DNA of 51,027 nt from Thermoanaerobaculaceae bacterium (GTDB taxonomy: Bacteria; Acidobacteriota; Thermoanaerobaculia; Thermoanaerobaculales; Thermoanaerobaculaceae), in assembly GCA_025456225.1 (NCBI GenBank), contig JALOLB010000032.1, forward strand, positions 1 to 51,027, in the 5' to 3' direction. Each line of letters starts with the position of its first letter. The stretch's first letter is position 1. The notes beneath the pieces are model-generated. The model had not been told where the DNA came from. It saw only the letters and a program-made list of their open reading frames with translations, and made no database searches. The position numbers and the translations under genes were made by a program. Positions 10,297-41,898 of this stretch are shown here, one piece after another.

Positions 10297-10344
10297 CCAG
10301 ATCACCGTAGTCCTGCCACGTTAGCACAGCTCCAGCAAGCGTTT

Positions 10345-12857: not shown

Positions 12858-15800
12858 ATGCGCACAAGCAGGATTTCAAGTCGGGTGTCTGGTTTCTTCC
12901 CCTTGGCAATGGCCGGTGTCGTGCTGGCCACCCTCGCACCTCTTGCGGCCTCGGCCCGCCAGACGCCGGCGCCGATCCCTGCGTCAGACGTGATGACGGG
13001 GTTTCCCTACCACTTCGAGGGCCATGTCTACGCGGGCCCGGTGGGAGACGAGTCCTCGCCGCTTTCGGGTGTGACCGTCTCGCTGTACGGCTCGAACAAC
13101 CCCTGCCCGGCCGAGGGCGCCTACATGAAGAGCGCCACCACCGACGCGAACGGGTGGTTCCGCCTGAGCTACTTCGACGACGAGTACGGTTGGGAGTTCT
13201 TCGCCATCCGCCAGACCAACCTGCCGGGGTACACGTCGGTCGGGGCGACCAGCATCGCCGGCACCGTGTGCACCTCGGACTGGATCCAGCACGGCCTCCC
13301 GCTCGAAGGGAAGAACCTCACCGGCAACACGTTCTGGGACCAGTCTGCGGCCACGCCGACACCGACACCGACGCCGTGGCGGGTGGTGCTCTCGGGCAAG
13401 GTCTTCGCCGGCGAGCCGCCGTACGAGAGCCAGCCGCGTTCCGGTGTCACGGTCTCGTTGTTCGGCTCGAACCGCCGGTACCCGGATCCCGGCACGTTCC
13501 TGCGCAGCGTCGTCACGGACGCGAGCGGCGACTTCACTCTCGTGGTGCGCGAAGGCGACGGGGCGTACCAGCTCTACGCCATCCGGGAGACCAACCCGCC
13601 AGGCTCCACCTCGACCGGCGCGAGCTCGGTCGGCGGCACGGTGCGGGACGCCGACTGGATCGAGTACCAGCCTCCGCTTGTGGGGAAGGTGCTGTCCGAG
13701 AACAAGTTCTGGGACAAGGTCGCGGCCACCGCAACGCCGACCGCAACGCCGACGACCCTTCCCGATGCGACCCACACGCCGACCCGGACCGCCACGCCGA
13801 CGCGGGTCGCGACGAGCACGCCGACTGCCACTGCACCCGTGGCCACCCGGACGCCCACGCCCACACTGCCCCGCCCCACCTTCACCCCGACACCCACCCG
13901 GACACCCACCACCCCACCGGTGTGCCCGGCGCCGGACCAGGCCGGCAACACCTTCGCGACGGCGGGTGTGCTCACTCCGGGGGTGGCGGTCCAGGAGTAC
14001 CTCTGCCCCTCGGGCGATCTCGACTACTGGAAGCTCCACGTCGTCGCGCCGGCCGAGATCAGGGTCTTTCTCTACGACCTCCCACTCGGCCCGCCGGCCG
14101 ACATGGACATCTTCCTGCTCGATCCCGGCGGAGCGCTGCGCAAGTCCGACGAGCGTTGGGGCGCCGACAAGGGCGGCTACATCTCGTTCGACGCCTGGAG
14201 CGACGGCGAGTGGCGGGTCCTGGTGCGCGGCAAGGGGGTGGCGGACTGGAGCAAGACCCACACCTACACGCTCAGGGTCGAGCTTTCCTACCAGTGCTAT
14301 CAGGCAGACGAGGCGGGCAATACCTTCAGCGCCGCAACGCCGATCCTGCCGAGCTTGCCGCAGGGCAACGTCGTGCGCATGCACACAGGAACGATATGCC
14401 CGGCGGGTGACGTCGACTTCTACAGGCTCTCCGTCGGCGGCAGCCAGACCGTCACGATCAACGCCACCCTCACCAACCTCCCGGCCGACTTCGATCTCAT
14501 CCTGCGCAAGCCCGACGGCTCGATCGCGGACTACTCGAACGCCTCGGGCACCTCGGACGAGCACGTCTCGGCCACCTCGACCAACGAGTGGGGCGACTGG
14601 CGGGTCTCGGTCTACGGCCCCGGCGGGACGGTCTACCACTCCCAGCCGTACACCCTCGAGGTGCGCCTGACGAGCACCGCCGACCTGAGCATCCAGGCGA
14701 TCGAGGTCACGCAGGCGATCCAGGACACCTCCAACACGGTGAAGCTGATCCGCGGCAAGCCGACGCTGGCGCGAGTCTACGTCCACCCGGGATCGGCCGT
14801 GACGTGGGCGGCGCCGGTGGAGGTCGAGCTGGCCGGCTGGTTCCGGGACGGCCTCGCCTGGATGCCGTTCCCCGACTCGCCGCGGACCCTCCCTCCGCAG
14901 AAGACCGGGAACGAACCGGTCGCCAACACCAAGCGCGTGGCGCTGGCCTCGAGCTTCAACTTCCTGCTGCCCGCGAGCTGGACCCAGCACGCCCAGCTCC
15001 GGCTCGAGGCCCGCGCCAACCCCAACAAGACGATTGCCGAGACCAGCTTCGCCAACAACACCCTGGCCACCGGCGACCTCGACTTCCGGACGGCCGCGAC
15101 GGTGAACGTCGGCTTCGTGCCGGTGTCGGTGAGCAACGTCGCCCCGAACCTTGCGACCGACCCCCAGTACGCCCGCATGCTCCCGTACGTGCGCTCGGTC
15201 TTTCCGGCCGCTGCCGTCCAGTACTGGGTCAAGACCGGCGGCCCGCTCGCGGTCACCTACGACTTCTCGGTGCAGGGGAGCGGAGGCGGATGCGGTCCCG
15301 CCTGGGTGAGCCTCCTCGGCGACCTCGAGGACATCTACGACAACTGGAGCAACAGGCCCCCCAACGCCTTCGTCTACGGTCTGATCGACAACGCCGTGCC
15401 GTACTGCGCCCCGCCGCCCGGGACGGGCTGCACCTTCGGGTGTGGGAGCATGAGCCGCCCGGTGTCGGAGGGTGTGCTGTACTCGAAGGCCGCCGAGACG
15501 GTCCCGCACGAGATCGGCCACAACTTCGGCCGCGGCCACGCCCCGTGCGGGTTGACCGGTGCCGACCCCAGCTTCCCGACCTACACCAACCCACTCACCG
15601 GCGCGGCCTACCCGAGTGGGCACATCGGCCAGGTGGGCGTGGACGTGCCGGGGTGGCGGGCGTTCGACCCGGCGGTGATTCCCGACCTGATGTCGTACTG
15701 CGACAACCCAACGGCGTGGATCTCGCCATACACCTGGAACGGGATCCTCGCCAAGATGCCGTTCTCTGCCGCGGCGGCGCCCGGCGCGCTGAAGCCGCAC

Positions 15801-18800
15801 CTCGTGGTGAGCGGGGTCGTCACGGGCGGGGCGCTCGCCGCGCTGCGCCCGCTGTGGATCCTGGACCGGGAGGAGGGGCCGTACTCCGGCGAGGGGGAGG
15901 GCTCCTACTCGATCGAGCTGCTCGACGCCTCGGGGCACCGGCTATTCATCCGGCGGTTCGACGTCGAGGACGGCGGGACGGCCCGCCACGCTGCCGGGAT
16001 GTTCCGCGAGACGATGCCGCTCCCGTCCGGGCTCGGCCGGGTGGTCATTGCCCACGAGAGCCAGGCGCTCGAGACCCTGACCGTGAGCCCGCACGCGCCA
16101 AGCGTTCGGGTTTCGTCGCCCAACGGCGGCGAGAGCTGGGCCGGCGCGGGCCCGTACACCGTCGCCTGGACGGCCAGCGACGCCGATGGCGACACACTCA
16201 CGGCGCAGGTCCACTACTCGGCCGACGGCGGGCGGAGCTGGACGCCGCTGGCGGTGAGCGTCGCCGGGCGCCAGCTCGCCGTCGAGGCCGACGACCTGCC
16301 TGGGGCCGTCGGGGCTCTCGTAAAGGTCAGCGTGACCGATGGCGTCAACACCTCGTCGGACGTGAGCGACGCGGCCTTCTCGGTGGCGCCAAAGCCACCG
16401 CAGCTCGTGCTCCTCGATCTCGAGGAGGGCTCACTCCTGCTGCCCACGGCGCGGCCCGCGCTCGCCGCCGCGGCGTTCGACGCCGAGGACGGTCCTCTCG
16501 ACGAGGGAGGCATGGCTTGGTTGTCCAACCGCGACGGCGAGCTCGGCGGCGGCAACTACCTCCCGGTCGCGGGGCTCTCCGCCGGGGTGCACCGGCTGAC
16601 CGCGACAATCGGGGACTCGAGCGACGCCCTCACATCGAAGCACGTGACCGTCACCGCGCTGGGCGACGGCGACGGGCCGCTGTACCTGCTCTCCGCGGCC
16701 GCCCACACGCCCGGCCTTGGCGGCACGACGTGGGTGTCCGACGTGACGCTCCACAACCCGCACACGGTTCCCGTCACCGCGTTCCTCTACTACGCGGCGC
16801 GGGACACCTCCGAGCCGCCGTCGCGGGGCTTCAAGGTCGAGATGCAGCCCGGGCAGAGCAGGACGTTGCCCGACGCGGTCGCTACCGTGACCGGCAGCGC
16901 CGCGTCGACCGCCGGATCCCTGCTCGTGGGTGCCTCGCAGCCGATCCTGGTTGCGGCGCGCACCTTCAACGACGCCGCCACGGGCACCTACGGCCAGCTC
17001 ATCCCTGGCACGCCGTTGCGCGAGAACGTGCGCGGCAACGACCCGGTGCGGCTCATCCAGCTCACCGGCAACGCCGCGTACCGCACCAATGTCGGCTTCG
17101 CCAACGCTGCTGCCGTGCCCCTGGAGGTTGTCGTGAGGCTCGTACGAGCTGACGGGACCTCGCTCGGGACGCGCACCTTCACGGTGCCGCCACTCGGGTA
17201 CCTGCAGGAGACCGACCTCCTGCGCAAGGTGGCGGGAGGCTCGGTGGACGACGCCTATGCCGTGGTCCAGGCGCTGGCCCCCGAGTCCCGCTACCAGGTC
17301 TATGCCTCGGTCGTCGACAACACTTCCGGCGACCCGATCAACGTCATACCCGCGGCGGTGCTGGAGGGGCCGGCCTGGGTGGCGGGGGTGGCGCACCTCG
17401 AAGGGGCCAACGCCACCAACTGGCGCACCGATGTGGAGGTGCTCAACGCCGGGAGCACCCAGGCAACCTTCACCTTCGAGCTGTACCCCCGCGACCAGGC
17501 CGTGAATCGGGGCGTGCACGCCATGGGGCCCTCGACCCGCACCTTCACCCTCGCCCCGCGCCGGGCCATGCGGTACGTCGACGTCGTCAAGGAGGTGTTC
17601 GGGCACACCGGCGGCGCGGCGCTGCGCGTGGTGGCGGTGGCCGGCGACGTCGCGGTCTCCAGCCGCACCTACAACCAGCTCGCCAATCGCACGTACGGGC
17701 AGTACACGGCGGCGATCGGAGAGTCGGCGGCGGTCACGGCCGGGCGCGAGGTGCGTCTCGTGCAGCTCGCGCATTCCCCGGTGCGGACCACCGGGTTCCG
17801 GACCAACGTCGGGCTCGTCAACACGGTGGCGATCCCGACCACCGTGGATCTGGTCCTGCGTGCCCCGGACGGCGCCGAGCTGGGTCGCCGGCAGGTGGCC
17901 CTGCGGTCCTTCGAGAACACGCAGCTCAACGACGTCTTCGCGTCCGTCGGCGCCCCGGCGCTGACGGGCGCCTGTGTGACGGTTGTGTCGCACACCGAGG
18001 ACGCCCGGTTCCTCGCCTACGCATCGGTGGTGGACAACCGCTCGAGTGACCCGGTGTTCATCCCGGCGCGGGAGGTCGAGACCGCCAACCAGGCGGCCAC
18101 AGCCAACCCCGCGGCTGCCGCGGGGCTGTCGTATCATGGTTTCAGAACCACACAACTCGGCGCGCTGGCCCTGCTTGCGGGCCTGGTCCTGGTCGCAGGT
18201 CGAAAGCGCCTAGGGAGGTATGCCGTGGAGAAGACAGCGCGCATCGTCGCCCTCGCCGCGGTGGCCCTGGCCGCCGCATCCCTCGCACTCGCCGGGTTTT
18301 CCGGCACGGACGTCTTCCTGCCGTCGGTGGGGGCCAAGCCCGGGGTGCCGCCGGCGGTGTGGTACACCACCGTGTGGGTGCACAACCCCAACGCCACAGC
18401 GGCGAACGTGACATTCCACCTGCTCGAGCGGCAGGCGAACCTGGCGCCGCTCACCTACACGGACACCATTCCGTCCGGGGACACGAAGAAGTACGACAAC
18501 GCCATCCAGACCATGTTCGCGCGCCAGACCTTCGGGGCGGTGCGCGTGACCTCGAACGTCAAGGTCATCGCCGGGTCGCGCATCTACTCCCAGGCGGGCA
18601 CCCTCGACGACTCGGTGGGGCAGTTCTTCGCCGGCGTGCCGGCGGGGTTCGCCATCGGCGCCGGGCAGAGCACCGAGCTCGTGGGGGTGTACAGCACCCA
18701 GCCGACCGCCGACTCGACCTTCCGCTACAACTTCGGGTTCGTCGAGGTGACCGGGACCGGGACGTGCACCGTGAAGGTGAGCGTGAAGGACCCGACCGGA

Positions 18801-20372
18801 ACGACGCTGGTGAGCAGGAGCTACACCGTGCGGCAGTGGGAGCAACTGCAGAAGGGGTTCAAGGACGAGTTCCCCACGCTGTCGACGCAGAACGCGCGGC
18901 TGACCGTGGAGGTCACGGCCGGGAGCGGCAAGGTGATCGCGTTCGGCTCGCTGGTGGCGAACGGCTCGCAGGACCCGTCGACCATGGAGATGAGCTTCCG
19001 GGACGAGCTGCTGGGGGCGGGCGGCGGGCTGCAGACCGTGGCCCACGACAGCACGCTGGTGGGGCAGGGAGTCGAGAGCTCCCCGCTCGGGCTCGCGGAC
19101 GACGCAGTGACGGCGGGGAAGATCGCCGACCAGACCGTGGTGCGGAGCGTCAACGGGCTGCGCGACGCGGTGACGCTGGAGGCCGGCTCGAACGTGAGCA
19201 TCGTGCAGTCGGGGCAGACCCTGACCATCGCGGCGACGCCCGGGGGCGGGGGCGGGGACATCACGGCGGTGACGGCCGGGCAAGGGCTGACCGGGGGCGG
19301 CACGAGCGGGGACGTGAGCCTCGGGGTGGCGAGCGGCGGGATCACCTCCGACCTGCTGGCCACGAGCGCCGTGACCCAGACCAACCTCGCCGACGGCGCT
19401 GTGACCACCGGCAAGATCAGCGCCGCCGGTTCCTCGAGCGGCCAGGTGCTGACCGCGAGCGGCGGCGCGGTCTCGTGGCAGACCGCACCGGGAATCACGC
19501 TGCCGTACCAGGGCGTATTCACCCTCACCGACCCAGGCACCGTCCTCTATCTGCGGAATGACGGCCCGGCGGCCGCCCTGATGGGGTTGAGCCAGGGGAA
19601 TGTGGCGATATGGGGGGACAACGGGCCCACATATGCGTTCACCGGTCCTGGGCCGGTTGGTGTTGCAGGCTCCTCGACGAGCGGGTCCGGAGTCTCCGGC
19701 ATGTCACAGACCGGCCCGGGTGTCACGGGCCGTGGCTCTCCAGGGATCTATGGCTTTGGGTCTCCGATTGCAGTGCTCGGCGAGAGCGGCGGCGGCGATG
19801 GCGTGCGGGGTGTGAGCACGAACGCGTACGGCGTGCACGGCATGAGCACCAACGGCGACGGGATCTTCGGGGAGACCAACGCCGCCGGCAAGTCTGGGGT
19901 CTACGCCGTCAACACGAACCCGGCGGGATACGCCGCGGCGTTCAACGGCCGGGTGCAGGTCAACGGCGACCTCAACGTCACGGGCACCAAGAACTTCTAC
20001 ATCGAGCACCCGCTTGAGCCGGGGCGGATGCTGGTGCACGCCGCGGTGGAGTCGTCCGAGGTGCTGAACGTCTACTCCGGGAACGTGCGGCTCGACGCCG
20101 ACGGCGCGGCCACGGTCGAGCTGGCGGCGTGGTTCGAGGCGATCAACGCCGACGTGCGCTACCAGCTCACGCCCGTGGGCGCCGCCGCGCCTGGGCTCCA
20201 TGTCGTCGAGGAGGTCGCGGGCAATCGGTTCCGCATCGCCGGAGGGCCGGCAGGGATCAAGGTCTCCTGGCAGCTCACCGCCGTCCGCAGCGACCGGCGG
20301 ATGCTCGAGCACCCGTTCGCGCCCGAGCGGGACGCAGGGCCGGGGGACCTGGCAGCAGCGCAGCGCCGCTGA
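12858..20372 (+). CDS. Giant ORF: secreted metzincin metalloprotease fused to tail-fibre-like protein
   Basis: 2504 residues from ATG 12858 (GAGGGAGG upstream; signal peptide ending 'LAPLAASA'). Order: two carboxypeptidase-regulatory/prealbumin-like beta domains ('GVTVSLYGSNNP', 'GVTVSLFGSNRR'); a Thr/Pro stalk (about 288-356); two pre-peptidase C-terminal-like domains (about 357-605); a CARDB-like region; a protease domain with zinc motif HEIGHNFGRGH at 884-894 (HExxHxxGxxH) and downstream Met-turn 'LMSYC'; an Ig-like domain; several 'TTWVSDVTLHNPH'-type domains; then a hydrophobic segment plus basic tail ('LGALALLAGLVLVAGRKRL') that looks like a C-terminal anchor or sorting signal near residue 1780. 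Immediately after, with no stop, comes a second signal peptide and a full tail-fibre-like protein. Biologically this looks like two genes, the first ending near 18210, joined by loss of a stop codon. Confidence 0.8.
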   Translation: MRTSRISSRVSGFFPLAMAGVVLATLAPLAASARQTPAPIPASDVMTGFPYHFEGHVYAGPVGDESSPLSGVTVSLYGSNNPCPAEGAYMKSATTDANGWFRLSYFDDEYGWEFFAIRQTNLPGYTSVGATSIAGTVCTSDWIQHGLPLEGKNLTGNTFWDQSAATPTPTPTPWRVVLSGKVFAGEPPYESQPRSGVTVSLFGSNRRYPDPGTFLRSVVTDASGDFTLVVREGDGAYQLYAIRETNPPGSTSTGASSVGGTVRDADWIEYQPPLVGKVLSENKFWDKVAATATPTATPTTLPDATHTPTRTATPTRVATSTPTATAPVATRTPTPTLPRPTFTPTPTRTPTTPPVCPAPDQAGNTFATAGVLTPGVAVQEYLCPSGDLDYWKLHVVAPAEIRVFLYDLPLGPPADMDIFLLDPGGALRKSDERWGADKGGYISFDAWSDGEWRVLVRGKGVADWSKTHTYTLRVELSYQCYQADEAGNTFSAATPILPSLPQGNVVRMHTGTICPAGDVDFYRLSVGGSQTVTINATLTNLPADFDLILRKPDGSIADYSNASGTSDEHVSATSTNEWGDWRVSVYGPGGTVYHSQPYTLEVRLTSTADLSIQAIEVTQAIQDTSNTVKLIRGKPTLARVYVHPGSAVTWAAPVEVELAGWFRDGLAWMPFPDSPRTLPPQKTGNEPVANTKRVALASSFNFLLPASWTQHAQLRLEARANPNKTIAETSFANNTLATGDLDFRTAATVNVGFVPVSVSNVAPNLATDPQYARMLPYVRSVFPAAAVQYWVKTGGPLAVTYDFSVQGSGGGCGPAWVSLLGDLEDIYDNWSNRPPNAFVYGLIDNAVPYCAPPPGTGCTFGCGSMSRPVSEGVLYSKAAETVPHEIGHNFGRGHAPCGLTGADPSFPTYTNPLTGAAYPSGHIGQVGVDVPGWRAFDPAVIPDLMSYCDNPTAWISPYTWNGILAKMPFSAAAAPGALKPHLVVSGVVTGGALAALRPLWILDREEGPYSGEGEGSYSIELLDASGHRLFIRRFDVEDGGTARHAAGMFRETMPLPSGLGRVVIAHESQALETLTVSPHAPSVRVSSPNGGESWAGAGPYTVAWTASDADGDTLTAQVHYSADGGRSWTPLAVSVAGRQLAVEADDLPGAVGALVKVSVTDGVNTSSDVSDAAFSVAPKPPQLVLLDLEEGSLLLPTARPALAAAAFDAEDGPLDEGGMAWLSNRDGELGGGNYLPVAGLSAGVHRLTATIGDSSDALTSKHVTVTALGDGDGPLYLLSAAAHTPGLGGTTWVSDVTLHNPHTVPVTAFLYYAARDTSEPPSRGFKVEMQPGQSRTLPDAVATVTGSAASTAGSLLVGASQPILVAARTFNDAATGTYGQLIPGTPLRENVRGNDPVRLIQLTGNAAYRTNVGFANAAAVPLEVVVRLVRADGTSLGTRTFTVPPLGYLQETDLLRKVAGGSVDDAYAVVQALAPESRYQVYASVVDNTSGDPINVIPAAVLEGPAWVAGVAHLEGANATNWRTDVEVLNAGSTQATFTFELYPRDQAVNRGVHAMGPSTRTFTLAPRRAMRYVDVVKEVFGHTGGAALRVVAVAGDVAVSSRTYNQLANRTYGQYTAAIGESAAVTAGREVRLVQLAHSPVRTTGFRTNVGLVNTVAIPTTVDLVLRAPDGAELGRRQVALRSFENTQLNDVFASVGAPALTGACVTVVSHTEDARFLAYASVVDNRSSDPVFIPAREVETANQAATANPAAAAGLSYHGFRTTQLGALALLAGLVLVAGRKRLGRYAVEKTARIVALAAVALAAASLALAGFSGTDVFLPSVGAKPGVPPAVWYTTVWVHNPNATAANVTFHLLERQANLAPLTYTDTIPSGDTKKYDNAIQTMFARQTFGAVRVTSNVKVIAGSRIYSQAGTLDDSVGQFFAGVPAGFAIGAGQSTELVGVYSTQPTADSTFRYNFGFVEVTGTGTCTVKVSVKDPTGTTLVSRSYTVRQWEQLQKGFKDEFPTLSTQNARLTVEVTAGSGKVIAFGSLVANGSQDPSTMEMSFRDELLGAGGGLQTVAHDSTLVGQGVESSPLGLADDAVTAGKIADQTVVRSVNGLRDAVTLEAGSNVSIVQSGQTLTIAATPGGGGGDITAVTAGQGLTGGGTSGDVSLGVASGGITSDLLATSAVTQTNLADGAVTTGKISAAGSSSGQVLTASGGAVSWQTAPGITLPYQGVFTLTDPGTVLYLRNDGPAAALMGLSQGNVAIWGDNGPTYAFTGPGPVGVAGSSTSGSGVSGMSQTGPGVTGRGSPGIYGFGSPIAVLGESGGGDGVRGVSTNAYGVHGMSTNGDGIFGETNAAGKSGVYAVNTNPAGYAAAFNGRVQVNGDLNVTGTKNFYIEHPLEPGRMLVHAAVESSEVLNVYSGNVRLDADGAATVELAAWFEAINADVRYQLTPVGAAAPGLHVVEEVAGNRFRIAGGPAGIKVSWQLTAVRSDRRMLEHPFAPERDAGPGDLAAAQRR
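18225..20372 (+). CDS. Second tail-fibre-like secreted protein, internal start within the giant ORF
   Basis: Likely an independent 715-residue gene starting at GTG 18225: GGGAGG stands 6 nt upstream and the first residues form a signal peptide (VEKTARIVALAAVALAAASLALAG). The mature protein begins '[19 protein letters not shown]', matching the mature N-terminus of the 10457 protein almost residue for residue. It has one 'GDITAVTAGQGLTGGG' repeat, glycine-rich fibre repeats, and a shorter C-terminal domain ('ESSEVLNVYSG', 'WFEAINADVRYQLTPVG'). It is therefore a paralogue by duplication. It shares the reading frame of the upstream metzincin because no stop intervenes; a TAG at 18211-18213 lies one frame off. 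Reading it as a separate gene is inference from the second signal peptide and ribosome site. Confidence 0.65.
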   Translation: MEKTARIVALAAVALAAASLALAGFSGTDVFLPSVGAKPGVPPAVWYTTVWVHNPNATAANVTFHLLERQANLAPLTYTDTIPSGDTKKYDNAIQTMFARQTFGAVRVTSNVKVIAGSRIYSQAGTLDDSVGQFFAGVPAGFAIGAGQSTELVGVYSTQPTADSTFRYNFGFVEVTGTGTCTVKVSVKDPTGTTLVSRSYTVRQWEQLQKGFKDEFPTLSTQNARLTVEVTAGSGKVIAFGSLVANGSQDPSTMEMSFRDELLGAGGGLQTVAHDSTLVGQGVESSPLGLADDAVTAGKIADQTVVRSVNGLRDAVTLEAGSNVSIVQSGQTLTIAATPGGGGGDITAVTAGQGLTGGGTSGDVSLGVASGGITSDLLATSAVTQTNLADGAVTTGKISAAGSSSGQVLTASGGAVSWQTAPGITLPYQGVFTLTDPGTVLYLRNDGPAAALMGLSQGNVAIWGDNGPTYAFTGPGPVGVAGSSTSGSGVSGMSQTGPGVTGRGSPGIYGFGSPIAVLGESGGGDGVRGVSTNAYGVHGMSTNGDGIFGETNAAGKSGVYAVNTNPAGYAAAFNGRVQVNGDLNVTGTKNFYIEHPLEPGRMLVHAAVESSEVLNVYSGNVRLDADGAATVELAAWFEAINADVRYQLTPVGAAAPGLHVVEEVAGNRFRIAGGPAGIKVSWQLTAVRSDRRMLEHPFAPERDAGPGDLAAAQRR

Positions 20373-29128: not shown

Positions 29129-29832
29129 GGCCGAAGCTCCGGCGAGCCGGGAGCGGGCGTCATGATGCGGCGGGGGTCGGGCGACACCAGGCCGCCGGAG
29201 ATCACCATGCGCACGGCCTCCTCCACGGAGATCGCCGTGCTGCGGACCTTCTCGATGGGGTAGAGCATGTAGAAGCCGGTGGTCGGATTGGGTGTGGTCG
29301 GCATGAACACCGAGGCCATCCGCCTCGGCCCCTCGTCGGTGATGGTCTCGAACTCGCCGGTGAGGAACCCCACGACCCACACGTCCTCGATCGGGAACGG
29401 GACCAGCACGACGCGCCGGAAACCCTTGGTGCGGTCGTGGGAGAAGGCGCGGGTGACCTCGCGAGCGCCGACGTAGATGGGGCGCAGGACCGGCACCCGG
29501 GCGAGGATCCGCTCGCCGAGCTTGAGGAAGCGGCGGCCGATGACGTTGTGGCCCAGGACGCCGAGCATGAAGATGATGATCAGCGCCAGGGCGGCGCCGG
29601 CGCCCGGGATGGGCTGGCCGAACAGCTCCTTGGAGATCGGGTAGGACCAACTGTCCAGCAGCCCGAAGATGAACCGCCCGAAGAAGACGGACACCGCCAG
29701 GGGGAAGGCGACGAGCGCGCCGGTGATGAAGCGGCTGCGCAGGAAGCCCATGACGGTCGAGTGCTTGTCCGGCTCGACCTGGGCCATCGGCAGGAACTGG
29801 GAGTCGTTCAGGGGATCGTGGCCGTCACTCAT
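29125..29832 (-). CDS. DUF502 family membrane protein
   Basis: 235 residues. Two membrane helices ('FITGALVAFPLAVSVFFGRFIFGLL' and 'ALALIIIFMLGVLGHNVIG') are followed by a conserved soluble domain with 'RVPVLRPIYVGAREVTRAF', 'VVLVPFPIEDVWVVGFLTGE' and 'VFMPTTPNPTTGFYMLYP', all characteristic of DUF502. The biochemical role of the family is not established. It overlaps acpS (upstream) and nth (downstream) by 4 nt each. A TACAAT box 9 nt before its ATG lies within acpS and may be chance. Confidence 0.9.
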   Translation of the reverse strand: MSDGHDPLNDSQFLPMAQVEPDKHSTVMGFLRSRFITGALVAFPLAVSVFFGRFIFGLLDSWSYPISKELFGQPIPGAGAALALIIIFMLGVLGHNVIGRRFLKLGERILARVPVLRPIYVGAREVTRAFSHDRTKGFRRVVLVPFPIEDVWVVGFLTGEFETITDEGPRRMASVFMPTTPNPTTGFYMLYPIEKVRSTAISVEEAVRMVISGGLVSPDPRRIMTPAPGSPELRP

Positions 29833-30233
29833 GGGACGCCGATTGTAGCGCCAGGCGGCGACACCACCTGGGCCTCCAGGATCACGACGGCGATGGCCAG
29901 CCCGCCGTCGTGGGTGATGGAGAGGTGCGAGCAGCCGACGCCCAGCTCGATCGCACGGCGGGCCGCGACGCCCTCGAGACGGAGGGACGGCTGCCCGTTG
30001 GCGAGGCGCTCGACCACCACCTGCCGCCAGCCCACGCCCTCGCCCCAGCCAGTGCCCAGAGCCTTGAACGCCGCTTCCTTGGCGGCCAGGAGCCCGGACA
30101 CGTGCTGCGCATCGCCGGGGCGGCGCACCTCGCCGGCCGAGAAGCAGTGGGCGAAGAGCCGCTCGGGATGCCTTTCCAGCAGGCGTGCAACCCGCGCCAC
30201 GCCGACCGCATCGATGCCCAGGCCGACGATCAC
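29829..30233 (-). CDS. acpS: Holo-[acyl-carrier-protein] synthase
   Basis: 134 residues. It transfers 4'-phosphopantetheine from CoA to acyl carrier protein. The family signatures are present: 'GLGIDAVGVARV' at the N-terminus (metal-binding Asp), 'HCFSAGEV', and 'LLAAKEAAFKALGTG' (catalytic Glu/Lys). It starts at GTG 30233, overlapping the stop of the upstream small membrane protein by 4 nt; the ORF-track start at 30410 lies inside that gene. The C-terminal tail after 'HLSITHDGGLAIAVVILE' runs about 15 residues longer than I expect. Confidence 0.92.
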   Translation of the reverse strand: MIVGLGIDAVGVARVARLLERHPERLFAHCFSAGEVRRPGDAQHVSGLLAAKEAAFKALGTGWGEGVGWRQVVVERLANGQPSLRLEGVAARRAIELGVGCSHLSITHDGGLAIAVVILEAQVVSPPGATIGVP

Positions 30234-30475
30234 GGGTTCCTCAGGGCGCTGTCCAGCCAGATGAAGGCGACCGCGAAGTGGATCACCCCGAAGCCGGCGA
30301 GGGCGCCGCGGAAGGCGCTGTTGCCGAGCAGTGGCAGGAGCCAGAAGGGGGTGCCGGCGAGCACGCGCTCGGTCCAGAAGTGGCCCCAGGGCGCCAGGAT
30401 GAAGAACCACCCGGCGCCCGTGAGGTACACGGCCACCAGCAGCCCGCCCATCGCCCGCAGCGCCCGCGTCAGCAC
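30230..30475 (-). CDS. Small membrane protein at the head of the acpS operon
   Basis: 81 residues from GTG 30475 (ATG 30451 would give 73). Two to three hydrophobic stretches: 'MGGLLVAVYLTGAGWFFILAPWG', 'FWLLPLLGNSAFRGALAGFGVIHF' and 'AVAFIWLD'. I do not recognise the family. A TACAAT box (30487-30482) puts the predicted transcript start on the G of the GTG, so the mRNA may be leaderless. Its stop overlaps the acpS start, so it is probably co-transcribed and coupled with acpS, DUF502 and nth. Confidence 0.65.
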   Translation of the reverse strand: MLTRALRAMGGLLVAVYLTGAGWFFILAPWGHFWTERVLAGTPFWLLPLLGNSAFRGALAGFGVIHFAVAFIWLDSALRNP

Positions 30476-30712: not shown

Positions 30713-31150
30713 ATGGCGGACACGTATGCGGTGGTTGTGGCAAGGGTGGAGAGAAATCCAGAAACTGCAGAGAGGAAGGTCGTGTGCTACCCGGACGGCG
30801 CGCAGCTCCTCTACAGGGCCGGTCCGACTCTGATCCGGTGGGTGTTCCAGAACGTGCCGGCCGAGATCGACGACGCGCGCGTCGAGTTCTTCGGGTCCCA
30901 GCCGATGGACAAGTACCAGCGGCCGGCAACCAAGCCGGTGTTGGGGAAGCAGGCGCTCGGCGACCACCGGACGAAGCTGGAGGTCTCCACCAGCGGCTCG
31001 CACCTTCGCGACCTCGTCACCATCGCGAACAACCAGGAGGAGGGCTACTTCTTCTACAAGGTGGTGCTGATGCGCGGAGGGGTCGATGTCATCTCGTCGG
31101 ACCCCGGAGGAGGCAACAGCCCTGAAACCCCGCTGCCCTGGCCTCCGTGA
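30713..31150 (+). CDS. Hypothetical protein (145 aa)
   Basis: ATG 30713 has a strong AAGGAGGGA site. There is no signal peptide or membrane segment. The sequence is beta-rich ('TYAVVVARVERNPETAERKVVCYPDG', 'LIRWVFQNVPAEIDDARVEFFG', 'EEGYFFYKVVLMRGGVDVISSDPGG') and ends proline-rich. The 'GYFFYKVVL..GG..V.SDPGG' ending resembles small cytosolic proteins of unknown role in environmental genomes. It is monocistronic, convergent with the pseudokinase gene. TTGACC at 30568 has no matching -10, so the promoter is unclear. Confidence 0.65.
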   Translation: MADTYAVVVARVERNPETAERKVVCYPDGAQLLYRAGPTLIRWVFQNVPAEIDDARVEFFGSQPMDKYQRPATKPVLGKQALGDHRTKLEVSTSGSHLRDLVTIANNQEEGYFFYKVVLMRGGVDVISSDPGGGNSPETPLPWPP

Positions 31151-31189: not shown

Positions 31190-33640
31190 TCAGGAACCGG
31201 GCCGGAGAAGCGCCTCGAATCGCGGCTCCCCCTGGAGACCGGCGAACTCGGGTCCCCGGAACCACGGGACCGGTGCGTTCGCCCTCCGTGCCCGGCCGGC
31301 CCAGGCGATGGCGCCCTCGCGGTCCCTGTTGACGGCCGCAACCAGCGACGCCGTGAACAGCGCCGCCGGATGACGTGGATACGCCGCCAGCAAGGCCTCG
31401 ACGGCCGACGCCGCCTCGGCCCGGCGTCCGAGCTGCGCGAGGCAGACCGGCCGGGTCTCGAGGACACTGCGTTCGGTGCGTGCCGCCTCTGGGAGGGCCT
31501 CGCACTCTGCCAGGGCGGCACTGTAGTGCTCCCTGGCCTCGTCGTGCCGGCCCAGCACGAGGAGCGTGTCGGCGAGGTTCCTGCGGGCCAGGAAGTCCTT
31601 GACGTCCCGGTCGAGGGCCCGTCGATAGTAGGTCTCGGCCTCCTGGAAACGGCCCTGATAGTAGAGGCAGTTCGCCATGTGGATGAGGTCGAGGTGGGTG
31701 CCACGGTCCAGCAACAGATCGCGGTAGAGACGCTCGGCAAGCTCGTGGTTGCCGGCGTACATCTCGACCTCGGCCACCCTTGCTTTGTATGCGGTGTCCT
31801 CGGCTCCACGAGACCTGTACTCGGCAAGCGCCCGGCGCGCCCCATCGTAGTCACCGTGGGCGGCGCGCATATCGGCGAGGGCGAGGTGAGCGGTGGCGTT
31901 GGGAAAGAGCCGAATGCTGCGCTGGAAGGCGATCTCGGCGTCGTCAAAGTGCCCGGCTCGTGACAGGGCATTCCCGAGCGCATGCCAGGTGGCGGGGTTG
32001 CCCGGTGCCGTTCTGGTGAGCTGCTCGGCCAGCTCGATCGCCCTGGTGGTCTGGCCGGTGAGCGTGGCGAGGCCGATCTCGGCCAGACCGACGTTCACCG
32101 GCGAGCCGCCGGCCGCTCGTGCCCGGCTGATGGCATCCTCGCACCTGGCGCGGTCCTCCTCCCGGAAGTGGAACGCGAAACGCCTGCCGTGCTGCTCGGC
32201 GAGCAGGAGCCATGCCTCGGCGAAGCCCGGAGAGTCCGCAAGGGCCGAGGTCAGCAGGCTGATCTCCTCCTCAAGCTCCCGTGAGGTGGCTCTCCTGGCG
32301 GCACGGTCGCGGACGATGAGGTAGGACCGGAAGGCAGCCGGGGATGCGGCCAGCGGGGAGGTACCCCTGGATGCGTAGTCACCACGGTAGGCCCCGCGGA
32401 GGAGCTCGCTCGCCAGCTCCCGGAGGGCAGCCGGCTCCCAGGTGCCGGTCGAGACTCTCTGCGACCAGAGCTCCCTGCCGTCCCGGACGCGGCGCCGGTG
32501 GAGCTCGAGCCATGGCCCTGGCTGTGGGGGCTCCACCGTCAGCTTGATCTCGACCAGCTCGTCGACTGCCAGCTCGCGGGCGATCTCCGCGTCGGTGCGC
32601 CCTGCGGCGTGCAGGCCCAGGACCTCCCGTCGCCCGGCCAGCGTGAGATTGTCCACACCGGCCAGGGCTACCACCACCGTGTCGAAGACCGCTGTGGCGG
32701 CGAGCCGTGCGTCCTCCGTGTCGGCCGGCGCCTCGACAGGCAGGACCGCGACCGCCAGGGGGCGACGGGATCCCCACCACCACCAGCCGGCCGCGGCACC
32801 CGCTACGGCAAGCGCCAGCGCGAGGGCAGCCGGCAGCCACCGGCGGCGGGATGGCGAAGGCCGGGTGACGGTGGGCACGACCTGGGTCGCGGTCTGGCTT
32901 CGGTGGGCCAGCGCATGCAGCTCGGCCGTCGCCTCGTCGAGGCTCTCGTAGGCAGGCACTCCGGGGAGGGCCATCAGGCCGGCGATGAGGCGTTCCAGGG
33001 AGGGCGCCAGCGCGCCACCGTGCGTGCCGATCGCTTCCCGGATCTCTTCGAGCGTCAAGCTCCCGTCCTGGCCCGGTGGGACAGGCTTGCCCAGGAGGGC
33101 GAGGATCGCCCGTCCAAGTGCCCGGAGGTCGGCTGCCGGGCGGTCGGTCGCGATGAGCTCGTGGGGCTCGATGGCAGCCCAGGGGGGCAGGCAGAAGCCG
33201 CCGATCTTCAGGTGTCCGGCATGGGTCACCAGGACCCTGCGGAGTCCGACGCGCCCGCACGTCACGTGGCGGTGGTGCACCGCCGCCAGCGCTTCGGCAA
33301 GCTCGGAGGCCATCCTGACGACCTCGCTGGTCGCGAACGGCTGGCGCGTGGCCAGGTCCTCGAGCGACGCCCCCTCGACCCACTCGCTGATGATCCAGTC
33401 GCTCCCGTCCTGGTGGACGATGTCCAGGATGTGCACGACCGCGGGGTGGGTGACGGCCGCCATGGCTCGCACCTCGCGCCGCCACCGCTCCCGGTCGTCC
33501 ACTCCCACACCTTCGAGGGGCACGCCAACGGCCTGGACCGGGCGCTCGAGCTGCTCGTCCCAGGCTGCGAATCTCTCATGGGTCGTGGAGGTCTCGATCA
33601 CGCGGTCGAGACGGTAGTGGCCGACGCGGGCGGGGCGCAT
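31190..33640 (-). CDS. Pseudokinase-transmembrane-TPR protein
   Basis: 816 residues. Residues 1 to about 240 follow the Ser/Thr kinase fold ('RREVRAMAAVTHPAVVHILD' as helix C/beta 4, 'WIISEWVEGASLEDL' as hinge, 'ADLRALGRAILALL' as the lower lobe). The catalytic residues are missing: no glycine-rich loop in 'RVIETSTTHE', no ATP lysine in 'VQAVGVPL', the HRD loop is 'HRHVTCGRVGLRRVLV', and DFG is 'GGF'. One membrane helix follows ('ALALALAVAGAAAGWWWW', about 272-292), then a TolB-like domain ('LAVAVLPVEAPADTED') and about ten TPR repeats. The architecture matches membrane kinase-TPR proteins of Acidobacteriota, but this copy should signal by binding, not phosphorylation. Confidence 0.85.
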   Translation of the reverse strand: MRPARVGHYRLDRVIETSTTHERFAAWDEQLERPVQAVGVPLEGVGVDDRERWRREVRAMAAVTHPAVVHILDIVHQDGSDWIISEWVEGASLEDLATRQPFATSEVVRMASELAEALAAVHHRHVTCGRVGLRRVLVTHAGHLKIGGFCLPPWAAIEPHELIATDRPAADLRALGRAILALLGKPVPPGQDGSLTLEEIREAIGTHGGALAPSLERLIAGLMALPGVPAYESLDEATAELHALAHRSQTATQVVPTVTRPSPSRRRWLPAALALALAVAGAAAGWWWWGSRRPLAVAVLPVEAPADTEDARLAATAVFDTVVVALAGVDNLTLAGRREVLGLHAAGRTDAEIARELAVDELVEIKLTVEPPQPGPWLELHRRRVRDGRELWSQRVSTGTWEPAALRELASELLRGAYRGDYASRGTSPLAASPAAFRSYLIVRDRAARRATSRELEEEISLLTSALADSPGFAEAWLLLAEQHGRRFAFHFREEDRARCEDAISRARAAGGSPVNVGLAEIGLATLTGQTTRAIELAEQLTRTAPGNPATWHALGNALSRAGHFDDAEIAFQRSIRLFPNATAHLALADMRAAHGDYDGARRALAEYRSRGAEDTAYKARVAEVEMYAGNHELAERLYRDLLLDRGTHLDLIHMANCLYYQGRFQEAETYYRRALDRDVKDFLARRNLADTLLVLGRHDEAREHYSAALAECEALPEAARTERSVLETRPVCLAQLGRRAEAASAVEALLAAYPRHPAALFTASLVAAVNRDREGAIAWAGRARRANAPVPWFRGPEFAGLQGEPRFEALLRPGS

Positions 33641-33706: not shown

Positions 33707-34399
33707 TCAGCGGCCGAGGAGGCGGTCCACGGTGTCATGCCGGGGCTGGTGGCCGGACTGCTGCGCCCGCAGGGCAAGCCACAGGATCCCGGCCAGGATC
33801 AGCCCGCTGGCCATGAGGATCCAGGCGTCGTAGGTCGTCTGGGTGGCGACCGTGAACGACATCGCCACTCCCCGCAGAAACGCCCCGTCGTGGAGGCGGG
33901 GGTCGCGGCTGCCGACCTCGATGCTGAAGGTGCGGTCGCCCCACGGCACGACGCCGGTATAGCCCAGGCTCGTGACGCGCTCCCCGTCGCGCTGGGTTTC
34001 GAACCACCCCCAGGCATCCCGGCCGCCGATCGACAGGGACTCCACCTCGCCGTAGCCCTGGGAGGTGTATCGGCGCGCGTACTCGTCCCGGGCCTCCTGG
34101 ATCTCGTCGCGGGTGGCGGCGCCGGAGTACTCGGTGATGATCACCGAGGTGGTCCAGTCCGTGCCGCCGGGCTTGAGGTACGCCACCTGCCGGAGCCTCG
34201 CCCGGTGGGGGAGCGGCGCGCGCGCGGACTGCACCGTGCTGGTGTAGGCGAGGCCCGTGGGTGGCTTGCGGAGGATCGGTCCCTCGTTGATCGGGGCGCA
34301 GCCGGCGGTTGTCACGGCGAGGAGCAGGGCGGCCAGCCAGCGGCCCGATGGTGCCAGGCGCCGGATCCCGGTCGTGGGCCCTGCCCCAGGTGTGCCCAT
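33707..34399 (-). CDS. Predicted lipoprotein with C-terminal membrane helix
   Basis: 230 residues from ATG 34399 (in-frame ATGs at 34408 and 34411 are possible). A lipobox 'LAVTTAGC' follows a hydrophobic stretch, placing Cys around residue 33. The periplasmic domain is mixed alpha/beta ('TSVIITEYSGAATRDEIQEARDEYARRY', 'GGRDAWGWFETQ', 'RTFSIEVGSRDPRLHDGAFLRGVAMSF'), reminiscent of small proteins that test for membrane damage or bind a partner. The end has a helix 'WILMASGLILAGILWLALRA' and a basic tail. A lipid anchor plus a C-terminal helix is unusual. Function unknown. A TATGAT box lies 7 nt before the ATG. Confidence 0.68.
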   Translation of the reverse strand: MGTPGAGPTTGIRRLAPSGRWLAALLLAVTTAGCAPINEGPILRKPPTGLAYTSTVQSARAPLPHRARLRQVAYLKPGGTDWTTSVIITEYSGAATRDEIQEARDEYARRYTSQGYGEVESLSIGGRDAWGWFETQRDGERVTSLGYTGVVPWGDRTFSIEVGSRDPRLHDGAFLRGVAMSFTVATQTTYDAWILMASGLILAGILWLALRAQQSGHQPRHDTVDRLLGR

Positions 34400-34447
34400 G
34401 TGCGTCATCATAGCCGGGTGGACATCGGGGCGCACCCAGAGGTGGCG

Positions 34448-36947: not shown

Positions 36948-39095
36948 TCAGCTCCTGGCAGGAATCAGCGCGGCGAGCCGGGGATGGCTGCGCAGGGGTT
37001 TCCACGCCGGGTCGAGGGCGAGGAGCTGGGGCGTCAGCCCGGACGGCTCCTGCAGCAGCTCGGCGACCAGGCCGGCGGCCCGGTCGTGCTCGCCGAGGGC
37101 GACCAGCGCCCGTGCGGCCTGCTCGCGGTCGAAGCAGCGGTTGACGGCGTCCGGGCTCTCGCCCTGGGTGCCGACCAGCCTCTCGACCATGTGCCGCGCC
37201 GCCTCGGTGCGACCGAGCCTGGCGAGCACGGTGCCGACCTCTCTGGAGACGCGGCCGGGAGCGCTCCGGCCGTCCGCATCAATGCCTGCGGCTCGCAGCG
37301 CCCGAAGGTACGCCTCGCGTGCCTCCGGCTGCCGCCCGAGCTGGGTGAGGATGTCGCCACGCAGGACCAGGAAGAGCACGGTGCTGGACACGGTTCCCTC
37401 GTCGCGGCTGCCGGCCGGCCCCAGCCGCTCGAGGGCGGCCTCGGGGTGCCCTTCCAGCATCTCGTGTATCGCCCACATGCTGCGGACCGCGTCGGTGTCG
37501 TCGTGAGGGGTCCTCGCGAGCACGGCCCGGGCCGCCGGCAGGTCCCCCACCTGCCAGTGGACCTCGGCCTGGGCGAGAAACGGCCCCGGGTTGTCGGGAT
37601 CGCACGAGCTGGCCTGCTCGAAGGCGGCCAGGGCGTCCTGGTACCGTCGGACGAGCACGAGGGTGGAGCCGAGCTCGCCGAGGAGGAGGGGATCCTGCGG
37701 GGAGAGGTCGAGTGCCGCCTTGAAGCCGACGATCGACTCCTGCCACCGGCCCTGCCGGCGCTGCACCCAGGCCTCGGCCTCCCACACCCCGGGCAGGTCG
37801 GCCCGGAGCTTCTTCGTCTCCTGCAGCGTTGCCAGCGCCCCGTCGAAGTCCTTGTCGCACCAGTAGGAGACCAGCGCCGAGGCGAGCAGGACGTGCGGCC
37901 GCCTCGGGGCCAGGGCCACCGCCGTCGCCACGGCGCTGGACGCCTGCCGGCACTGCTCGGGCTCGAGGTCGTTCCCGAGGTGGTAGAGGTTGGCGTGGTC
38001 GCGCCCCAGCTCGGCCCAAGCCTCGGCGAAGGCCGGGTCGAGGCCCGTCGCGCGCTCCTGGAGGCGCACCGCGAGTCGCAGGCCCTCCCCCGACGATCGT
38101 GACCGCCGGGCGTGCCAGCGCCCCTCGAGGTAGGCACGGAACGCGTCCAGGTTGGTGGTCGGTGCATGCCGGAGGGTCGCGAGCTCGTGCTGCTCGATCA
38201 CGACCGGGAGGCGGCCGCCCACGGACGCGGCGATCTCACCCTGGACCCCCAGGAGGTCGGTGGCGTCGCGGTCGAAGGTGTCGGCCCACACCTGGGAGCC
38301 GTCGGCGGTCCGCACCACCCTGGGTGTGATCCGAACGCGGTTGACCCGGTGGTCCCAGCGCACGGCGCCTGCCACCACGTAATCTGCCTGCAGCAGCCGG
38401 CCGGTCTCCTCGACGCCCCGGCCGGCGAGCCGGCCCGATCCGGTCGGGCACGCCACGACCTGCATGACCCGCAGTCCCGCCAGGCGGCTGCTGATCTCCT
38501 CGGCCATGCCGACGCCGAGGTACTCGTCTGACGGCTCGCCGAGGTTCTCGAAGGGCAGCACGGCGACCCTGGGCGGTGTGACGGGCTGGATGGACGCGGG
38601 GTCGGCCTTGGGTGAGCTGCCGGACCAGGCGCCGAGGCCCAGCAGGACCAGCGCCGCCGCGGCCACCGGCGCGAGCGCCGGGCGCCACCGCCGGCGGGGC
38701 TCCAGCTCCAGAGGGGGCTCGGCCGCGTTCGGTTTCGGGGTGTCGGGGTTGCCGTCGAGATCCGTGACGGCCGCGGCCAGGCGGTAGCCGCGGCGGGCCA
38801 CCGTCTCGATGTACCGCGGCTGCTGTGCCTGGTCCGAGAGTGCCTCCCGCAGCTCGAACACGGCACGGGAGAGCACGGAGTCGCTCGTCGGCTGGCCGGG
38901 CCACACCGTGTCCAGCAGCGTCTCCTTGGCGACCACTGCTCCGGGTCTCGCAGCGAGCGCCGCCAGCACGTCCATCGCCTTGGGGCGCACGAGGACGACC
39001 ACCCTGTCGCGCTCGATGCGGTTGCGGGTCGGCTGCACCACCCAGTCGCCGAGCTTGAAGGGGCTGCGCCGCGGTTCGAGAAGGACGGCCGCCAT
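36948..39095 (-). CDS. CadC-like winged-helix transmembrane regulator with TPR domain (second copy)
   Basis: 715 residues from ATG 39095; the ORF-track start 40226 runs antisense through the next gene. The winged helix spans about 14-110 ('VRPKAMDVLAALAARPGAVV', 'VLSRAVFELREALSD', 'IETVARRGYRL'). After a membrane segment ('PALAPVAAAALVLLGLGAW') comes a TolB-like domain typical of adenylate-cyclase/CadC-type sensors ('RVAVLPFENLGEPSDEYLGVGMAEEISSRLA'), then TPR repeats ('AFAEAWAELGRDHANLYHL' onward). It is a probable one-component membrane regulator. It is divergent from the secreted hydrolase gene at 39285, its likeliest target. It shares design with the regulator at 7870 but has a clearly different sensor sequence. 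Confidence 0.88.
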   Translation of the reverse strand: MAAVLLEPRRSPFKLGDWVVQPTRNRIERDRVVVLVRPKAMDVLAALAARPGAVVAKETLLDTVWPGQPTSDSVLSRAVFELREALSDQAQQPRYIETVARRGYRLAAAVTDLDGNPDTPKPNAAEPPLELEPRRRWRPALAPVAAAALVLLGLGAWSGSSPKADPASIQPVTPPRVAVLPFENLGEPSDEYLGVGMAEEISSRLAGLRVMQVVACPTGSGRLAGRGVEETGRLLQADYVVAGAVRWDHRVNRVRITPRVVRTADGSQVWADTFDRDATDLLGVQGEIAASVGGRLPVVIEQHELATLRHAPTTNLDAFRAYLEGRWHARRSRSSGEGLRLAVRLQERATGLDPAFAEAWAELGRDHANLYHLGNDLEPEQCRQASSAVATAVALAPRRPHVLLASALVSYWCDKDFDGALATLQETKKLRADLPGVWEAEAWVQRRQGRWQESIVGFKAALDLSPQDPLLLGELGSTLVLVRRYQDALAAFEQASSCDPDNPGPFLAQAEVHWQVGDLPAARAVLARTPHDDTDAVRSMWAIHEMLEGHPEAALERLGPAGSRDEGTVSSTVLFLVLRGDILTQLGRQPEAREAYLRALRAAGIDADGRSAPGRVSREVGTVLARLGRTEAARHMVERLVGTQGESPDAVNRCFDREQAARALVALGEHDRAAGLVAELLQEPSGLTPQLLALDPAWKPLRSHPRLAALIPARS

Positions 39096-40284: not shown

Positions 40285-40432
40285 GACAGCAGATCAGCGA
40301 ATCAGCAGATCGGTGGATCAGGCAGGCAGCCTCGGATGGTTGGGGGAGCTGACGACCTGATGCGCTGGCTTGCCGGGGGGCTACTGGGGCGGGACGGAGC
40401 CGGACCCCGGACCCCGGACCCCGGACCCCGGA
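40285..40432. repeat. Two heptamer-like arrays with the shared spacer
   Basis: Imperfect GATCAGC/GAATCAGC units lie at about 40285-40322. GGGGGAGCT follows at 40342-40350 (the complement of the AGCTCCCCC spacer seen in other blocks). Four perfect CGGACCC heptamers then occupy 40401-40428. The last array lies inside the 3' end of the ligase-like gene on the minus strand. Confidence 0.8.
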
Positions 40433-41898
40433 TCGTGCGGGCGGGAGAGCAGGGCAATGACCGCGTCCTTGCGGACCTTCCCACGCTCGGAGGTCGGCAG
40501 CTCGTCCACCAGCACCAGCCGCCGGGGCAGCTTGTGGGGGGCGAGCATCCGGCGGCACGCTGCCAGGATCGCGGGGACGGTGAGGCCGGCGGCGCGGTCC
40601 ACTTCCACCACCGCCGCGACGAGCTGGCCGCGGTGCTCGTCGGGGAGCCCTGTGACGACCGCGGCGCGCACACCCGGGATCGCTTCCAGGGTGCGACGCA
40701 CCTCGTCCGGGTGGACCTTCTTGCCCGCCACGTTGAGCAGCTCGGCCACCCGGCCGGTGAGGGTGAGGCACCCGTCCGCGTCGAAGACGCCGGAGTCGCC
40801 GGCCAGAAAGCGCCCTCCGCCGATCAGGCCGCCGCGATCGTGTGCCGGAACGGTGCCGCGTGCCACGGCCCCCGAGCGCACCAGCACGCGGCCCTCCTGG
40901 CCCTGCGGCAGGGGGTTGAGCATCTCGTCAACCACGTCCACCCGCACACCCCGCATGGGGCGTCCGACCTGCCCTGGGCGCCGCGTCGCCGGCGGGCCGG
41001 TCTCGTAGGTGATGCCTCCGCATTCGGACGAGCCATAGAAGACGTTGACCCGGTGCCCGGTGAGCGCCTCGAAGGCCTGGGCGTCGGATGGCATCAGAAG
41101 GGCGCCGGCAGTGAGGCAGACCCGCAGGTCGGGCAGCGGGGGGAGGTGGTCGTCCAGGCTCGTGAGTGCCCGGATGTGCGCCGGCACCGCCGGAAAGTGG
41201 GCGACCCGTGCCCGGGTGAGGGTTTCGGCGAGGGCAGGGGGGAGGTTGGAGACCGGGAACGCCTGGGGCGTGCCGGCCAGCAGCAGCGGCACCAGGCACG
41301 AGCCGATGCCGTAGGAGTGGGTCATGGGGATCGCCGCCAGGGTCACGTCGCCCGGACGCACCTGCATCGTGTGCATGATGTTGGCGGAGTCGGTGGCGAG
41401 CTCGCGAGGGCCGACGGCGACGGCGCGCGGCGTCCCGGTGGAGCCCGAGGTGAGCTTGAGCAGCGCCGTGCGGAGGGGTAGCTCCACTGCCGGCACGTCG
41501 TTGCGCAGCCCCAGTGCGACCGACCCGCTCTCCCACGTGGGTCGCACGGCTCCCAGGCGTCCGGGGCAGGCCAGCACGGCCACCGCACCCACCGCGTCGG
41601 CGGCCCGGGTGAGCTCGGCGGACGGGGCGCCCGTGTCCACGAGGGCCACCGGCAGGCCCAGGGCGCGCAGGGCGCCAAAGGCCGTCACGAGATCGGGGCC
41701 GTTGGGCAGCGAGAGGGCGACGGCGCGATCGGGCGGGAGGAGGGGCGCAAGCACTCCGGCCAGCTCGGTGATCCGGGACGCGAGCTGCCCTCGTGTCGCC
41801 AGCACCTCGCCTCGCGCGCCGAGCAGTGCCGGCGTGTCGGGAGCGAGGGACGCGAGGGAGAGGTACCGCCTCAGAAGCGGGCAGGCGGCTCTACTCAC
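40381..41898 (-). CDS. AMP-dependent synthetase / acyl-CoA ligase-like enzyme
   Basis: 505 residues from GTG 41898, overlapping the upstream gene by 8 nt. Adenylate-forming core motifs are in order: 'LTSGSTGTPRAV' (P-loop-like; Arg replaces the usual Lys), 'FYGSSECGG', 'GDSGVFDADGCLTLTGR', and the C-terminal 'PTSERGKVRKDAV' with the catalytic lysine. It should activate a carboxylate to an acyl-AMP and then a thioester. MenE is a possibility given menC in the window, but the distance is 14 kb and the neighbours differ, so I leave it unnamed. The last 16 or so residues (GSGVRGPGSGSVPPQ) are encoded by CGGACCC repeats, a probable extension. Confidence 0.82.
   Translation of the reverse strand: MSRAACPLLRRYLSLASLAPDTPALLGARGEVLATRGQLASRITELAGVLAPLLPPDRAVALSLPNGPDLVTAFGALRALGLPVALVDTGAPSAELTRAADAVGAVAVLACPGRLGAVRPTWESGSVALGLRNDVPAVELPLRTALLKLTSGSTGTPRAVAVGPRELATDSANIMHTMQVRPGDVTLAAIPMTHSYGIGSCLVPLLLAGTPQAFPVSNLPPALAETLTRARVAHFPAVPAHIRALTSLDDHLPPLPDLRVCLTAGALLMPSDAQAFEALTGHRVNVFYGSSECGGITYETGPPATRRPGQVGRPMRGVRVDVVDEMLNPLPQGQEGRVLVRSGAVARGTVPAHDRGGLIGGGRFLAGDSGVFDADGCLTLTGRVAELLNVAGKKVHPDEVRRTLEAIPGVRAAVVTGLPDEHRGQLVAAVVEVDRAAGLTVPAILAACRRMLAPHKLPRRLVLVDELPTSERGKVRKDAVIALLSRPHDPGSGVRGPGSGSVPPQ

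Follow-up and report, generated by a model that had tools for sequence, protein, structure and literature searches.

Whether a protein kinase domain that has lost its catalytic residues still has a function, and of what kind, is the question raised by a gene of a Thermoanaerobaculaceae bacterium (genome G000, contig JALOLB010000032.1). The gene lies in the window, by which we mean the whole stretch of 51,027 nucleotides that was analysed, and is organized as follows (window positions, with the evidence in brackets):

31190..33640 (-): whole gene, pseudokinase, transmembrane helix, alpha/beta domain and TPR, 816 aa, ATG start
32891..33640 (-): pseudokinase domain, residues 1-250 (Pfam; AF2, pLDDT 81; Foldseek)
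32837..32890 (-): juxtamembrane linker, residues 251-268, predicted disordered and Thr-rich (TATQVVPTVT) (AF2; sequence)
32771..32836 (-): transmembrane helix, residues 269-290, Arg-rich on the kinase side (AF2 helix; hydropathy)
32381..32767 (-): alpha/beta domain, residues 292-420 (AF2)
31205..32359 (-): TPR solenoid, residues 428-812 (Pfam TPR families; AF2)

Kinase fold and domain organization

The original prediction of a kinase domain fused to TPR repeats was borne out by the matches to Pfam TPR families and by the solenoid in the AF2 model. The Pfam profile Pkinase matched residues 50-149 with 39.3 bits (cut-off 31.7) and PK_Tyr_Ser-Thr matched with 42.8 bits, likewise above its cut-off, and because these scores exceed the cut-offs the kinase identity of the ORF goes beyond chance. 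Structure prediction for the kinase half gave a bilobal kinase fold (pLDDT 81), so that the window protein combines the significant profile match and the bilobal fold that characterize the Hanks-type kinase fold. Stk1/PknB and MviN were among the top Foldseek matches of the domain model. The pseudokinase domain would face the cytoplasm. A Pfam search with the alpha/beta domain matched no family, and the domain is TolB-N/FlgO-like by resemblance only.

Elsewhere in the window, two ORFs (36951-39095 and 7873-10305, both on the reverse strand) join an OmpR-type DNA-binding domain to TPR repeats; in these the repeat module has a transcription output in place of a kinase. On the same strand as the pseudokinase gene and ~67 bp upstream of it lies an ORF for a lipoprotein-like protein of 234 aa (33707-34411 (-)) without a Pfam match, a possible operon partner. 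The window also contains a very long ORF of ~2495 aa (12885-20369 (+)), whose start resembles a signal peptide.

Loss of the catalytic motifs

Motifs were called from profile and multiple alignments against active orthologues, with ~18 intact relatives in the comparison; the orthologues of G011 and G015, of which the C-terminal parts alone were seen, fall outside it. The following residues are relevant (all by alignment):

33527..33529 (-): V38, replacing the ATP-anchoring Lys (VAIK to VQAV)
33473..33475 (-): E56, the helix-C Glu, the sole catalytic-network residue retained; Asp in the sister species
33236..33259 (-): CGRVGLRR (128-135), replacing HRDxKxxN; the Asp is R130 and the Asn is R135
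33191..33199 (-): GFC (148-150), replacing DFG; the Asp is G148

The glycine loop, GSGGMG in intact relatives, reads ETSTTH in the window protein. As originally predicted, the glycine loop, ATP Lys, HRD Asp and DFG Asp are thus all replaced, and alignment with active proteins places no Lys or Asp at the catalytic positions. Helix C and the hinge, which were said to be kept, are indeed present (E56 and SEWVEG), as is the alpha-F Asp (D171). A further loss goes beyond that prediction: the activation segment and its SPE/APE motif are deleted, and the DFG position is ~20 residues away from the alpha-F Asp, vs ~45 in orthologues. The protein therefore lacks what is expected of an active Ser/Thr kinase (VAIK Lys, HRD Asp, DFG Asp and an activation segment with APE). 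By sequence and AF2 model it fits the description of a pseudokinase, in which the kinase fold persists, the catalytic motifs are gone and the domain is retained under selection, and we infer that it is a Hanks-type pseudokinase and no longer an enzyme. L33 and D76 of PknB, which we take to be its back-to-back dimer residues, would correspond to L31 and D73 in the window protein, both of them kept.

The claim that kinase-TM-TPR proteins are usual in this genome is consistent with the 47 PF00069 matches in G000, many of them in ORFs of 600-1200 aa, a count that covers kinase matches only. In about 42 of them the motifs are intact or the match is a fragment of a gene of that kind; of the four atypical proteins besides the window gene (on contigs C53, C106, C154 and C392), three keep APE, and the window protein has the most degraded full-length kinase domain of all 47, in a tally that covers G000 alone. 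The atypical proteins (L099 on C53, L100 on C106, L101 on C392 and L102 on C154) carry the motifs HLD/GFG, VWLR-HGF-GFG (twice) and AAIK-HGN-GFG, unlike the window gene.

Origin of the catalytic loss

Two genomes of the genus were compared, both metagenome-assembled: G000 (82% complete) and G001, a Holophagae MAG. The orthologue in G001 (JAAYVZ010000231.1) is 43% identical to the window protein and is also dead, with the motifs VLVT, HGG and GGC and a deleted activation segment. Common to both copies are the change of the HRD Arg to Gly, LD to GG and G to C at DFG, AKW to PPW, and the activation-segment deletion; the remaining positions of the lost motifs differ between them. K, HRD and DFG are intact in the orthologues of G002-G010 and G016, the rest of the family, and in the order. 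Since the G001 copy is dead with common losses and the other readable orthologues are intact, the loss most likely occurred once, on the genus stem. The same observations therefore indicate a genus-level conversion of an active kinase, and not an error or an old pseudokinase family. With two genomes of the genus compared, a single pair is the basis for calling the dead state conserved.

The original prediction had left it to the orthologues whether the losses are shared, and had held that mostly active orthologues would speak against it. Several of the losses are shared by the G001 copy; all other readable orthologues in the family and order look active, so that at family level orthologues are indeed mostly active and deadness is specific to the genus. 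One intact-looking orthologue in G002 (L073, 8569-11106 (-)) is split by a single in-frame TAG just after DFG, either a real break or a sequence error.

Gene neighbourhood

Four neighbouring genes serve to compare the locus between genomes:

30713..31150 (+): small convergent ORF, 145 aa, adjoining the kinase locus in most of the family
30230..30475 (-): 81-aa membrane ORF, syntenic marker
29829..30233 (-): acpS (4'-phosphopantetheinyl transferase), downstream syntenic marker
40381..41898 (-): AMP-binding enzyme, flanking the chemosensory cluster in G002 and G003 and directly preceding the intact kinase in G005

In most family members the kinase gene is followed by the small convergent ORF, a membrane ORF of 81-91 aa and acpS. 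The order in G002 and G003 is AMP-binding enzyme, CheW-like genes, MCP, CheA, CheB, receiver/GGDEF, CheR and kinase, with acpS after the kinase in G003; the Che part is also upstream of the kinase in G008 and others. The intact kinase of G005 sits directly between the AMP-binding enzyme and acpS, and a search for a CheA gene in G005 found none. In the window too, the dead gene lies between acpS and the AMP-binding enzyme, the latter being separated from it by ~6.7 kb of other genes; the neighbours are acpS, DUF502, nth, the AMP-binding enzyme and an amidohydrolase.

The small ORF belongs to a conserved family of ~115-145 aa with the pattern C-x-P-D ... GP-x-x-I-R-W ... SxGSHLPDLVT ... DPGGDN, whose members run convergent to the kinase gene in the window and in L070-L084. 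It was considered as a known partner, and gave no Pfam or PDB match.

A second kinase copy in a chemosensory cluster

The suggestion that an active paralogue exists found support in G001, where the AMP-binding enzyme and chemosensory cluster lie on a separate contig and are followed by a second, intact-looking kinase copy (G001b, P0002). G000 has the chemosensory cluster on C126, where CheA is 72% identical; of the second copy, a C-terminal fragment (48%) lies at the edge of contig C282, and no more of the paralogue was seen in G000. A kinase on C257 of G000 was considered as its N-terminal half and rejected: it lies downstream of an enolase-like gene, and the upstream genes differ.

Che clusters ending in a Hanks-type kinase with a TPR sensor were observed at L072:51-7884, L112:1265-9723 and L087:9641-18131, and comprise CheW-like genes, a dCache MCP, CheA, CheB, a receiver-GGDEF protein and CheR. 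A cluster of this kind together with its kinase could link Che-type sensing, c-di-GMP and Ser/Thr phosphorylation. In G003, a Che-cluster kinase of ~300 aa (L087:8697-9596) has the catalytic motifs and lacks the transmembrane helix and TPR, the opposite of what is seen in the window gene. No publication on Acidobacteria kinomes with TPR came up in a literature search. The case draws attention to a kinase of Acidobacteriota that has been little described and is attached to a chemosensory/diguanylate cyclase cluster.

Evolutionary rates and selection

Trees were compared for the kinase and sensor partitions, and in both the dead pair is nested within the family. In the kinase tree the stem of the dead pair carries 2.05 changes per column, vs 0.03-0.45 on the end branches of intact members; in the sensor tree it carries 0.55, inside the range of intact members. 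The acceleration in the dead pair is limited to the kinase half. The Che-linked copy has branches of 0.45 (kinase) and 2.2 (sensor), and an AU test of an origin of the active copy within the genus gave p values of 0.138 (kinase) and 0.026 (sensor), with long branches.

Between the window gene and its G001 orthologue, identity at codon positions 1/2/3 is 63/66/47% over the dead domain and 68/77/53% over its N-lobe. Third positions are close to saturation, and the pattern points to purifying selection on the protein sequence after the loss of catalysis. GC at the three codon positions of the dead domain follows the same pattern as in the rest of the gene. Protein identity between the dead copies is 43% for the kinase domain, 49% for its N-lobe, 41% for the TPR and 54%, the highest, for the alpha/beta domain. 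Stops are rare in DNA this rich in GC, with 0-1 of them in some of the other reading frames over the dead domain, so that an open frame by itself says little.

Proposed function and alternatives

We propose, at a probability of roughly 60%, that the protein is a non-catalytic membrane receptor or scaffold, derived on the genus stem from an intact kinase, which signals by binding alone. In the rest of the family, the membrane-anchored Hanks-type kinase with its alpha/beta-TPR module is intact, and relatives can still be seen to share a locus with the order AMP-binding enzyme, chemosensory cluster, kinase, small ORF and acpS. Most likely on the genus stem, the acpS-side copy lost the glycine loop, the Lys, HRD and DFG, together with the activation segment, and kept the predicted fold, the frame and a normally evolving sensor. 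The periplasmic alpha/beta-TPR module may recognize a ligand or partner in the envelope. The signal may then be relayed, through protein binding alone, by the cytoplasmic pseudokinase domain, which is expected not to bind ATP. Most likely the domain would dimerize with an active Hanks kinase or dock to it, the Che-cluster paralogue being the first candidate. Alternatively, as with MviN, the domain could serve as a platform that is phosphorylated and bound by FHA-type readers; in that route the juxtamembrane Thr residues (TATQVVPTVT) would be phosphorylated and read by an FHA protein. A scaffold role is plausible, and the binding-only role would fit both the purifying selection on the dead domain and the precedents of MviN and EssB/YukC. 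The acpS-side copy has kept its sensor and lost its kinase, and the Che-cluster copy has kept its kinase and diverged in its sensor, a pattern that looks like complementary degeneration. A more tentative version, which we consider rather unlikely, is that a receptor kinase was divided in this way between the two paralogues, which act in trans, and that the acpS-side pseudokinase regulates the Che-cluster kinase in trans through its N-lobe.

The strong acceleration of the kinase half (2.05 changes per column on the stem), set beside a sensor half evolving as in intact orthologues, would also be expected if only the periplasmic alpha/beta-TPR module mattered and the pseudokinase were an inert folded cytoplasmic cap serving topology or stability. 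The DNA-binding outputs joined to TPR repeats elsewhere in the window are in keeping with this. A cap, however, does not need a kinase domain as conserved between the dead copies as the TPR, nor an N-lobe that is more so, and we regard this explanation as unlikely. Loss of catalysis by drift in a decaying gene whose ORF is still unbroken is less likely still: since the two species separated, over ~1 change per column, both have kept the full-length frame, lengths have changed by whole codons and the codon positions show a bias typical of selection; the catalytic loss is older than the split. In favour of decay stand the fast evolution of the kinase half, the intact copy elsewhere and the rarity of chance stops in GC-rich DNA, which makes the open frame poor proof.

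Enzymatic pseudokinases have precedent (PMC12599244), and the domain might have taken on another chemistry, as SelO or SidJ did. SelO and SidJ, however, have retained ATP/metal residues, K and D among them, whereas the window protein lacks the Lys, HRD Asp, Asn and DFG Asp altogether and its activation segment is deleted, which makes a new chemistry very improbable. An assembly or frame error that mimics a dead kinase is hardly credible, even though both genomes are metagenome-assembled: the independent assembly of G001 has the common losses at 43% identity, neither copy contains a frameshift, and an artefact is thereby contradicted. The case also suggests that selection has maintained a TPR receptor whose kinase had been given up.

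Comparison with known systems

The closest known counterparts are the intact kinase-TM-TPR orthologues in the same Acidobacteriota family (for example L072, L074 and L075), which share the locus (small ORF, acpS) and domain order with the window gene and are 30-37% identical to its product over the full length. Unlike it, they have the glycine loop, VAIK, HRD, DFG, SPE and a full activation segment.

MviN (Rv3910, of the ActPs3 clade) is the best pseudokinase sequence match (1.2e-8) and among the best PDB fold matches. Like the window protein it has lost the three motifs and has a shortened activation loop; its pseudokinase differs in following a polytopic membrane protein, with no TPR described. 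MviN is a PknB substrate that recruits FhaA and does not bind ATP, and ActPs3 is mainly actinobacterial and consists wholly of pseudokinases (PMC12599244). The window protein, in contrast, is derived from active kinases within one family, and descent from ActPs3 was ruled out by the synteny and trees linking the gene to intact Acidobacteriota kinases.

EssB/YukC of T7SSb and TraF of T4SS resemble the window protein in having a cytoplasmic pseudokinase with a short activation loop, one transmembrane region and a helical extracytoplasmic domain, a layout that the window protein shares. They have a scaffold role; YukC/EssB binds FHA domains and does not bind ATP (PMC9600267), and the outer domain of TraF is TPR-like (PMC13037476). 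The extracytoplasmic part of the window protein is much larger, EssB/YukC is absent from its best 50 fold matches and no secretion genes lie next to the window gene, so that membership of EssB was ruled out on gene context.

GLW, DLHK and CP1 are further bacterial Hanks-type pseudokinases, compared here by description. The window protein fits none of the three: it has CGR and not GLW at the HRD position, lacks the retained HRD of the DLHK example and lacks the COG3899 partner domain of CP1. Pseudokinases are already known; this lineage and its dated loss look new. The better-known bacterial pseudokinases (MviN, EssB) belong, to our knowledge, to families in which no intact orthologue occupies the same locus. 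Here an intact same-locus orthologue, a dead pair and an active-looking paralogue are available together, so that the change from enzyme to binding module can be assigned to a single branch and dissected by domain. This makes the gene a clean example from nature of a signalling enzyme that has probably become a part which only binds.
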